Assembly: GCA_964036195.1 (NCBI GenBank)
Contig: OZ038455.1
Coordinates: 4,233,855-4,297,854, forward strand
DNA from: Sphaerolaimus hirsutus
Lineage: Eukaryota > Nematoda > Chromadorea > Monhysterida > Sphaerolaimidae
Length of the DNA: 64,000 bases
Direction of reading: 5' to 3'
Shown: positions 370 to 64,000 of the stretch, one piece after another
Layout: the number at the start of each line of letters is the position of its first letter
How positions within the stretch are numbered: position 1 is the first letter of the stretch
Program-made: the position numbers and the translations under genes
The notes under the pieces: generated by a model
What the model saw: only the letters and a program-made list of their open reading frames with translations
Told to the model about the DNA's origin: nothing
Databases searched by the model: none

Positions 370-3300
370 GTTCGTTAGACTGGAATTGCGTGAACTGGGG
401 GCAGTCCCAAACTCTGTAAAATGTCAAATGTCATGTAAAGTGTCAAAAGTACGTTTGCCATTTTGCAGGGCATTTTACATTACTTTTGACACTTTGCATG
501 GCATTTGCGATTTTACAGGGCATTTTATAGGGTCTCTGAACGGCACCTTCGTTGTTTCGTAAAATGTTTTTCCTGTTTTGGAACAATTTTGATTTCTTTA
601 AATGATGGCGTCAATTATGGAGTCTTTCCTGTAGAAAAATGCATAATGTGTTGTCCGCGCGGTAAAGACTTGAAAGTGCCTCTCTATAGGATTCAATCTC
701 GCAAATAAATACCCGGTTTTTCTTATTTTGGCACACATCCAATATTCTCAAATTTTTTCAACCAACAATTTTGAAAATAAAAAAAACTCAGGTGTCCATC
801 CGTCGAATGCCTGGTGAATTTCCCCTGCCAAAAATCCGTGAATCATTCGCACATCAGTTCGCAACTGAAGATTCGGAAGGCAGCGATTTCGAATCAACTT
901 GGCCAGAACCAGTTTCTGAGGGACACGACCACAAGAATTTGCTCAGTGTGAGTTTTAGGGTTGGGTTAGGTTTATGATTAATGATTTATGGGTCTTTTTC
1001 ATGTTGATTTTTGAATTTCAGTAGAAAAGATTGTAAAACATGATAGAAAATTGTTGGAAGTATGAACAAATGCGAATGCTTGATTTGATACTATTTAAAT
1101 AATTATTTTACAACTGCTGATACTTGATGAACTGCATGATAAAAAATGAATTTTTTATATTTCCTCATCAAACTGCAAAAAAAATCAATTTACATTCACA
1201 TGCATGTATCTGCATGCATACTGATTTCTCACACATCCCCCCCCCCCACAGCAAGCGGCTTGTGTCCGCCGGCGCTACTCCAAGTCTCCGGGGGAGCCAT
1301 TGTCTGCTGCAGCGGGGGGTGTTGGCATGATGCCAGGGGGTCCCAAAGATCCACCAGGGGGTGCCAGGGGGGCCAAGGGCCCCGTCAAGAGGCTCAGATA
1401 TGTGGGAAATAGTGTCGCTAGGGGGCACCTGGCAAGCATTATTGAGTTGGTTGTTGATTTGGATTTCGGAGAGAGATTTTATTTTTCTGAAATCAAGTCC
1501 AGGTGCCAAATTCAATTCGAACATTCAGAACAAGAGCTTTATGTTCTAATAGGATCTGGCCCCCGTCAACATTAATAACAGTGGATAAACTTTTCAGGGA
1601 ATCCAACAAAACTCGTTCCCTGCTGTCAGATTCCACTGGGGCTATAGCAGCACTGGGTCGATTTGGCACACACAAAATGTTTGTTTATGATATTTATTTT
1701 TGTGACCATACTGGATAAAAAAAAATATTTGTAAAAAAAGTCAAAGTGAAAAGGGCAGTCCGAACCCTGCAAAATGTTGTGTAAGACGTATAATCGGCGG
1801 ACATCACGGTTAGTATGGAAACCTACCATAACCCATCTGAATAATAAACCAAAAATTATACTGTTTTTCCATCAAAGTATTTCGTTTTTACTACGGAAGA
1901 ATTAATTATGAAATTTATCACAAATTCATTAGATTATGGTAGGATACTGTACGTACCTTGGGGTCCGCCGAGTATAACATAAAATTCGTCGAATTTCATG
2001 CAAAATGCCAAAATTTAGCTTTATAAATATATTTTACATGGTACTTGACAAATTTACTGTCACTTTTCACTTGTCCACTCATAGATACCCCTTCCCCATT
2101 CTTAACCAATTCCACATTGCCCCCCCAAAAGAAAACACCACCCCCCCAGGCGCCGTGGCGCTGGCGCCACAGGGGGTGGCCGTTGGCACGGGGGTCGCCA
2201 GGGTCGCCCCCAGTCCATGAAGGGGGCCTCCAACTCAACCAAGGCGCACATGAACGCCATGCTGCAGTACGAGAGCAGCCACTTGAAGGAGAACGGAGAT
2301 TTGGTCAGACCCAGTGACTCCGCCCCCAAGAAGTCCGCTACTAAGGAGGGCGAGGTCGACTTGAAGATGATTCAACAGAGGCAGAAACATGCCGAGATTC
2401 AGAGGTGGGGGGGGGGGGTGTTTGCATTTGCGTGTGCAGATGACTGTTTGCAAAGTTGTAACTGCAAATATGGTGATATTTGCAGTTGGATTTCATCTTA
2501 AATATCAGTTTGCATTTTTTGTTGCGATATTAATACGTGATGCTGCAGAAACAATGCTAACTTTTGAGTAGCACAGAAAAGTTTTATTGGCAGTTATGTG
2601 TTTGCAAATCTGCTTTTGTATACGCAAATGCACGGCATAGAAAGTCACTAAATAGTACAGTAAAAGTTGACATTACGACAAAAATATCTCAAAAAGAAGG
2701 CTAAACGTTAAGTTCGTCACTTAACGTTAATTCTGGGAGAAAAAAAAACGAAATGCTTTTTGTTTATAACAAATTTGACTTTCGATTTGACAAACATTTT
2801 TAAACTTTCACTCATTCTTGATACTTGTGTGTCCACTTGACAGTGCTAAGAATTGAATCCAGACCAATCAAATTTTACCGCATCTAATTAACCTCCCACA
2901 TTCAGGAATCGAATCGAGGAGGAAATCCGTGAAAATCACCCCTATTTCGATCGGCCGCTTTTCGCCATCGGACGCACCACGCAATTCCGTAGATTTTGCC
3001 AATCGATTGTATATGCGAAATATACACCAATGAAAGTGGACCCGGTCACTGGCAAACCGGTGCAGCACAAATTCAGCGAGTTGCAGTGGGTTTTTAAAGA
3101 AAAATTTTTTTTTTAAATTTTTTTTTGGATAAAAATATGTTTTGATTTGGGATTGGACTGGACAAGGACACTTTGCAAAAAAATGGTGGTAATCAAAAAA
3201 AATGTTGTGACGAGGTTAAGTCAACTGAAAAGGAAACTTTTCCAGTATTCCCAAACTTTTATTCACTTATCACATAGCACACGTCACCTGCTACTTGTCC

Positions 3301-64000: not shown

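Follow-up and report, generated by a model that had tools for sequence, protein, structure and literature searches.

Introduction

How new introns originate, and how strictly the 3' AG rule holds in animals, are long-standing questions, and both are touched by a 64-kb stretch of the genome of the nematode Sphaerolaimus hirsutus (hereafter the window, meaning the whole stretch of DNA that was analysed), in which short hairpin elements interrupt the exons of several genes. The question raised by this locus is whether such elements act as introns and, if so, with which ends. Introners of Micromonas, Aureococcus, dinoflagellates and others were reportedly described by Huff et al. in 2016. An earlier note on the window had presented its elements as introners in an animal genome; the host is indeed an animal, and introners in two animal groups are already documented in the relevant part of the survey of Gozashti et al. 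(2022; PMC9860276), so that introners in an animal are not new by themselves. As described there, that survey began from annotated introns, and introns outside the annotation could therefore not be found by it.

A family of hairpin elements in the window

Ten copies with recognisable ends were located in the window using a profile built from the four introns claimed earlier (Table 1). The sense strand of the element reads GTGCCAGTCCC...GGGACTGCCCC, and the ends are inverted repeats that are similar and non-identical (GTGCCAGTCCC against the inward-read GGGGCAGTCCC). The earlier note had described at least ten elements with the terminal sequence GTGCCAGTnCC at both ends; the ten copies are there, but the identity of the ends is not, only three exact GTGCCAGTNCC termini occurring in the window. 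Among the copies seen, the length is about 130-270 bp (192 bp in copy B). The hairpin character that had been attributed to the elements was borne out for the four exonic copies, in each of which a single hairpin spans almost the full length; the z-scores of folding against shuffled sequences were -16.2 for copy B in NALCN and -4.4, -7.5 and -11.2 for the other three, and none of 200 shuffles was as stable for any copy.

The 3-bp CNG flanking duplication is likewise present in most copies, as CTG, CAG and in one case CGG, but copy A departs from it with CTG and CTT. The two duplicates also differ from each other in copy D (CTG and CAG) and in copy H (CGG and CAG). With inverted repeats at the ends (TIRs), a constant 3-bp CNG target-site duplication (TSD), a hairpin structure and a length too short for a transposase, the family has the characters of a MITE.

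The copies outside exons had all been assigned to older introns, which is correct for A, J and K, each within a larger intron of the NALCN gene; C has no recognised gene nearby, and G and H adjoin an open stretch of the phosphatase gene. No Pfam family was found in the six frames of 15-25 kb, the region around copy C. The G/H pair may have arisen when one element landed at the border of a second.

Table 1. Genes and element copies in the window, with positions counted from its first base.
Feature	Position	Strand	Description
NALCN-like gene, C-terminal part	204..14757	+	22 introns by spliced alignment, 19 GT-AG
Elongase gene (ELOVL/ELO family)	50267..54650 (approximate ends)	-	Alignment to Pristionchus elongase
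PP1-like phosphatase gene, 3' part	60650..63241 (approximate ends)	-	Alignment to PP1-type proteins
Putative introner B in NALCN	9012..9206 (element 9012-9203, 3' duplicate CTG 9204-9206)	+	Exact excision would give GT-TG
Putative introner D in elongase	51078..51270 (element 51081-51270)	-	Duplicates CTG (5') and CAG (3'); GT-AG
Putative introner E in elongase	53925..54134 (element 53928-54134)	-	Duplicates CTG/CTG; exact excision would give GT-TG
Putative introner F in PP1-like phosphatase	60747..61018 (element 60750-61018)	-	Duplicates CAG/CAG; GT-AG
Copy A	398..546	-	Antisense, within NALCN intron 370-791
Copy K (sister subfamily)	about 3607..3850	-	CGG duplicates; within NALCN intron 3581-4179
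Copy J (sister subfamily)	about 10257..10474	+	CAG duplicates; sense; within NALCN intron 10060-10556
Copy C	19946..20113	-	Without recognised gene nearby
Copy G	63382..63571	-	Head-to-tail with H, one CTG (plus strand CAG) common to both
Copy H	about 63179..63378	-	Sense 3' end adjoins open stretch of phosphatase gene

Protein continuity at the four exonic copies

Four copies cut coding exons exactly, one in NALCN, two in the elongase and one in the PP1-like phosphatase, and all four are in sense orientation to the gene. For the NALCN gene, the match is to the human channel of solved structure (E 8.5e-78); for the elongase, a Pristionchus protein was the sole match among 182 candidates in the protein search, and no sequence relative was found in the PDB. 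When the element and one duplicate are removed, the elongase aligns gaplessly with the Pristionchus protein at both junctions (YTVDP-WLACS-FW against YTVDP-GQLSG-FW, and RWFLFMNACVHTLMYAYYA), the alignment of the phosphatase to PP1-type proteins runs through the junction, and the NALCN junction is gapless by eye against the human sequence. The earlier claim that such a removal restores a gapless protein was confirmed at both elongase sites and, by eye, in NALCN; in the phosphatase the alignment continues through the junction.

Modelled coding sequence makes up about 6% of the window, so the presence of four exonic copies among ten is unlikely to be due to chance (P about 0.002, an approximation using hand-entered lengths). 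The copies might nevertheless be ordinary MITEs in ordinary introns, coinciding with coding gaps by chance or through misassembly, as A, J and K do lie within larger introns; the exact coincidence of the edges in four of the ten window copies, and in the seven genomic copies spanned by homology that are described below, makes this highly improbable. It is well supported, within the window and outside it, that one transposon family interrupts unrelated genes exactly where an intron would be needed, and protein continuity suggests that the element is spliced from the mRNA.

Predicted GT-TG and GT-AG ends

Exact removal of an element yields GT-AG only where the 3' duplicate is CAG, and GT-TG where it is CTG. 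The four elements had been taken as exact introns, and they do interrupt their exons exactly at the places proposed, but a canonical 3' end fails at two of them. At 9012-9206 in NALCN and 53925-54134 in the elongase, the removed piece ends in TG, which had gone unnoticed. By eye, no direct-repeat register at either CTG/CTG site ends in AG. Among the GT-AG and GC-AG options enumerated for B and E, none keeps the protein unchanged, and the in-frame alternatives add or remove residues; the GT-AG alternative that exists for copy E adds three. The spliced aligner, which penalises ends other than GT-AG, picked GT-TG at neither site. At E it settled on other junctions, of which one costs two residues and another has an unusual donor, and its choice at B was implausible.

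The ordinary introns of the genome are GT-AG. Such ends were assigned to 19 of the 22 placed NALCN introns by an aligner that favours them, and the other three comprise one element site, one intron that is GT-AG when placed by hand and one with a poorly aligned end.

In 25 of the 28 CTG/CTG copies of the genomic set described below, an AG, usually within TTTTACAG, lies 19 nt upstream of the end; it is absent in loci L010, L045 and L051 and has also been lost in window copy E. Human GT-TG introns, according to the relevant part of Szafranski et al. (2007; PMC2374985), have an AG no more than 28 nt from the TG 3' splice site, and the same 25 of 28 copies have an AG within that distance. However, the human TG is described there only as an alternative to the nearby AG, whereas the TG would be the main site here. 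In C. elegans, mutational work has shown that AG is not obligatory (Aroian, 1993; Zhang and Blumenthal, 1996, as cited in PMC10946897).

The main rival explanation is that splicing uses sites inside the element, namely a GC donor two bases in (GGT/GCCAGT), with TTTTACAG, 19 nt short of the end, as the acceptor, which would leave 21 nt (18 of the element and 3 of the duplicate), or seven added codons with no stop. The AG that it needs is present in 25 of the 28 CTG/CTG copies. Enumeration of 15 CTG/CTG cases showed the option to be open in 12, all three insertion phases (0, 1 and 2) being represented; codon-adding introners are also mentioned for Aureococcus in the account of PMC9860276. Against it, the option is missing in E, L014 and L045, the upstream AG of copy D is by eye out of the frame that it requires, and several insertions (NALCN, SLC23, P4-ATPase and BCKDHA) are situated in membrane segments or conserved cores, in which seven extra residues would probably be costly. 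The composition of the duplicates, considered below, bears on it further.

Copies across the genome

The assembly (348 Mb in 762 contigs) contains thousands of candidate copies. A DNA search with copy B gave matches in at least about 40 places, 87-92% identical to copy B (80 strand-wise matches of a palindromic element, with 40 of the 3063 candidates scored). The exact 26-base 5' end occurs 231 times after CTG and 334 times after CAG, reversed control patterns occurring 0 times, and the excess of CAG at the 5' end may be a target bias. A set of 80 loci with 1.5-kb flanks was composed of the 20 best matches, 30 copies with a 5' CTG and 30 with a 5' CAG, the last two groups coming entirely from contig C1. 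The first step discarded copies that lay too close to a locus edge or lacked two recognisable ends, which left 92; the removal of 9 duplicates of other loci and of 22 copies without CNG on both sides then gave 61.

Seven genomic insertions have a junction spanned by homology. The insertion in SLC23A1 (L030) leaves 89 residues aligned without a gap, with the junction after residue 65, and that in BCKDHA (L029) has no gap near the junction and one farther on. In an OSCP1-like gene (L021) two sites align 42 residues to 42 profile positions and 50 to 50. The alignment of the P4-ATPase membrane part is gapless, yet its best match extends only six residues past the junction, and in an Srx receptor and an AMP-binding protein the junction is spanned in an alignment that is not gap-free. 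Introners are recognised by many similar copies of an element that coincide with whole introns of unrelated genes; here similar copies coincide with coding gaps of unrelated genes, at four junctions in the window and seven elsewhere in the genome. The OSCP1-like gene carries two or more putative introners, and these differ in 3' class, one being CAG/CAG and one CTG/CTG. One element-bearing gene matches both Srx and Srv, which are nematode receptor families.

All 11 homology-spanned insertions (four in the window and seven genomic) are sense, with seven CTG/CTG, two CTG/CAG and two CAG/CAG; this is not an unbiased sample, because sense frames were favoured for the Pfam search; that choice does not affect the four cases in the window, which the earlier note had singled out. 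At the curated Pfam cut-off, 7 of the 23 sense frames sent (10 + 10 + 3) passed, as did one of seven antisense frames (GDT1, L062), in which the match does not span the junction. A sirtuin match at L063 ends before the junction and was not counted.

Codon-frame scoring called 35 of the 61 copies at score 15, 29 as sense and 6 as antisense, and its two-sided form gave 26:9; control points in the flanks, away from elements, had a sense excess too (32:15). With a composition-neutral score the excess is weaker, at 13:5 for score 5 (P 0.096) and 23:9 for score 3 (P 0.02), and this score labels two insertions proven to be sense by homology (L030 and L021:1350) as antisense. Since codon-frame scoring is noisy in GC-rich exons, the claim on orientation rests on homology.

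The sense orientation bears on two further explanations. One is that the elements are excised exactly from somatic DNA, like the internal eliminated sequences of ciliates, instead of being spliced from RNA, for a reversal of transposition would remove precisely the element and one duplicate. DNA excision would work in either orientation, but the 11 homology-spanned exonic copies are without exception sense, and the assembly, presumably of mostly somatic DNA, retains the elements; we hold this to be the least probable of the explanations considered. The other is that copies become introns only when flanked by CAG, those flanked by CTG being disruptive, unspliced insertions in polymorphic alleles, pseudogenes or haplotypic contigs. 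This would agree with the want of a seamless GT-AG option at B and E and with the near-identical duplicate loci that occur in the assembly, but all seven homology-spanned CTG/CTG insertions are sense and lie in conserved genes with frames that are otherwise open, and the copies, at the identities to copy B given above, are not identical. We consider it decidedly unlikely.

Skew of the duplicates towards a 3' AG

Among the 83 non-redundant two-ended copies, 55 have matching CWG pairs (28 CTG/CTG and 27 CAG/CAG), 6 have mixed CWG duplicates and 22 carry a different triplet at one or both ends, a tally that is biased because the loci were partly chosen by a 5' CTG or CAG. Whole-element patterns were counted genome-wide, which gave 105 CTG..CTG, 55 CTG..CAG and 29 CAG..CTG. 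With no force acting on the 3' duplicate, mismatched pairs should be CTG..CAG as often as CAG..CTG, and this null should be independent of insertion preference. The mixed duplicates, coding and non-coding copies being pooled, are skewed 55:29 towards a 3' AG (P 0.006), and 47:16 (P about 1e-4) when near-identical copies with at most two mismatches are collapsed; across all the thresholds used, the ratio ran from 53:23 to 42:16. AG is favoured at the 3' duplicate. About eleven near-identical CAG..CTG copies, most of them on C9 (24.9-25.8 Mb) and others on C15, C16 and C591, were probably spread by local duplication.

The skew towards a 3' AG fits use of the duplicate as a splice acceptor and disfavours splicing at internal sites only, under which the 3' duplicate should show no bias for AG. 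Together with the copies in which the internal sites are missing or out of frame, this leads us to regard the GC-AG alternative as unlikely.

Coding-sense calls at score 15 were made for 14 of 29 copies with a 3' CTG and 15 of 32 with a 3' CAG, and no cost of CTG is visible in them. Loci L003 and L004, with a 3' CTG, and L012, with a 3' CAG, represent one insertion in near-identical loci. Many similar introns in one animal would differ at the 3' end mainly by one base (CTG or CAG), in this case even at the same insertion, so that the penalty for a missing AG, and the mending of this end by selection, could be measured directly.

A model for the origin of the introners

Considering the sequence evidence above, we think it probable that the introner derives from a CWG-targeting hairpin MITE, that the hairpin in the pre-mRNA is removed exactly, and that GT-TG ends are tolerated and later selected towards the canonical form. 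A non-autonomous hairpin DNA transposon would insert at CWG trinucleotides and duplicate them, and its sense strand begins with GT, so that a sense insertion in an exon would be framed CNG/GT...C/CNG; the hairpin would then be removed exactly from the pre-mRNA, as the element plus one duplicate, and the protein would be unchanged. At a CAG target, the duplicate would give the AG acceptor and the element the GT, resulting in a canonical intron at once, and the element may for this reason be called preadapted to make introns. At a CTG target, GT-TG would be tolerated since an acceptor of nematode-like sequence (usually TTTTACAG) 19 nt upstream in the stem may define step one, the exact end being chosen in step two, and a hairpin formed by the whole intron could hide the upstream AG and bring the ends together. 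Selection would then favour the change from CTG to CAG in the 3' copy. What this model would add to the observed features is the splicing itself, the use of TG, the two-step choice of the acceptor and the attribution of the skew to selection. A more far-reaching version, in which constitutive GT-TG introns number in the dozens to hundreds and are exactly removed with the aid of the hairpin, perhaps also with that of a duplicated U2AF1, and turn canonical through CTG to CAG changes, is a serious possibility that we stop short of calling probable.

The introners of Micromonas, Aureococcus and dinoflagellates, as characterised in the pertinent sections of PMC9860276, likewise have the hallmarks of non-autonomous DNA transposons (TIRs and a short TSD), insert into exons, mostly leave protein length unchanged and carry one splice site, the other coming from the duplicate. 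The present elements are unlike them in having an animal host and in that 7 of the 11 checked insertions end in TG when exactly removed. Introner elements of Amoebophrya, going by the corresponding part of Farhat et al. (2021; PMC7789003), share hairpin-forming inverted repeats, direct repeats of 3-5 nt at the borders and non-canonical ends; they have RNA-seq support and very diverse ends, whereas the present elements have a GT at the 5' end and a 3' end set by the duplicate. The relevant text on the larvacean Fritillaria borealis (PMC13326754) describes an animal with many non-GT/AG introns and U2AF duplication, and U2AF1 is duplicated here too (see below). That species departs from the rule in 95% of its introns and has duplicates of both U2AF subunits, whereas the ordinary introns here are GT-AG; a majority of non-GT/AG introns is not what we found, judging from the aligner-favoured GT-AG ends of 19 of 22 NALCN introns. 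Because both subunits are duplicated there, Fritillaria is only a partial parallel.

In its passages on the subject, a survey of intron gain in nematodes (PMC9169325) mentions introners only from elsewhere, and no nematode introner family appeared in the titles or abstract beginnings of the literature searched, subscription papers and preprints aside. Animal introners and non-canonical hairpin introners are each known, and it is their combination in a nematode that is absent from the literature so covered.

Transposase and splicing factors

The target-site duplication is similar to that of NuwaI, a group in the PIF/Harbinger-related PHIS superfamily that is described in the relevant section of PMC4482050 as occurring mainly in animals and having a 5'-CWG-3' TSD; one CGG pair in the window deviates from this pattern. 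A DDE_Tnp_4 (Harbinger-type) family is abundant and very uniform in the genome. There are 163 DDE_Tnp_4 matches; the three loci checked among them have other ends, and no transposase with the TIRs of the element was found. A short repeat at 53660-53740 of the window resembles the left end (GGCCCCACGCACACTAG) of the DDE_Tnp_4 family (L089-L091).

U2AF1 was found at two diverged loci (C14:3032343-3038016 and C16:15183246-15191469; L081-L088), with a near copy of the C14 locus on C720, and both loci are closer to human U2AF1 than to ZRSR2. U2AF2 has one strong locus. A CTG..CAG putative introner at C16:15182255-15182448 lies on the same strand as the C16 U2AF1, just past its final matched exon.

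Other sequences in the window

Scanning the window against Rfam and for tRNAs gave no matches, nor did Pfam on all three minus-strand frames of 55-64 kb, and an exact 24-base piece of the 5' end of the element is absent from viral contigs. Several other repeats were seen. A 109-bp repeat occurs at 41069-41177, 44777-44885 and 57413-57521, with two copies 100% identical, and is adjoined by a 215-bp repeat family. GGGATC-rich repeats are located at 28661-29137 and 38065-38467, with similar GGGACC runs at 8329-8462 and 35373-36954. Long inverted repeats lie at 25466-26625 (nested) and 37490-38047, and their arms of 126-189 nt are 92-94% complementary.
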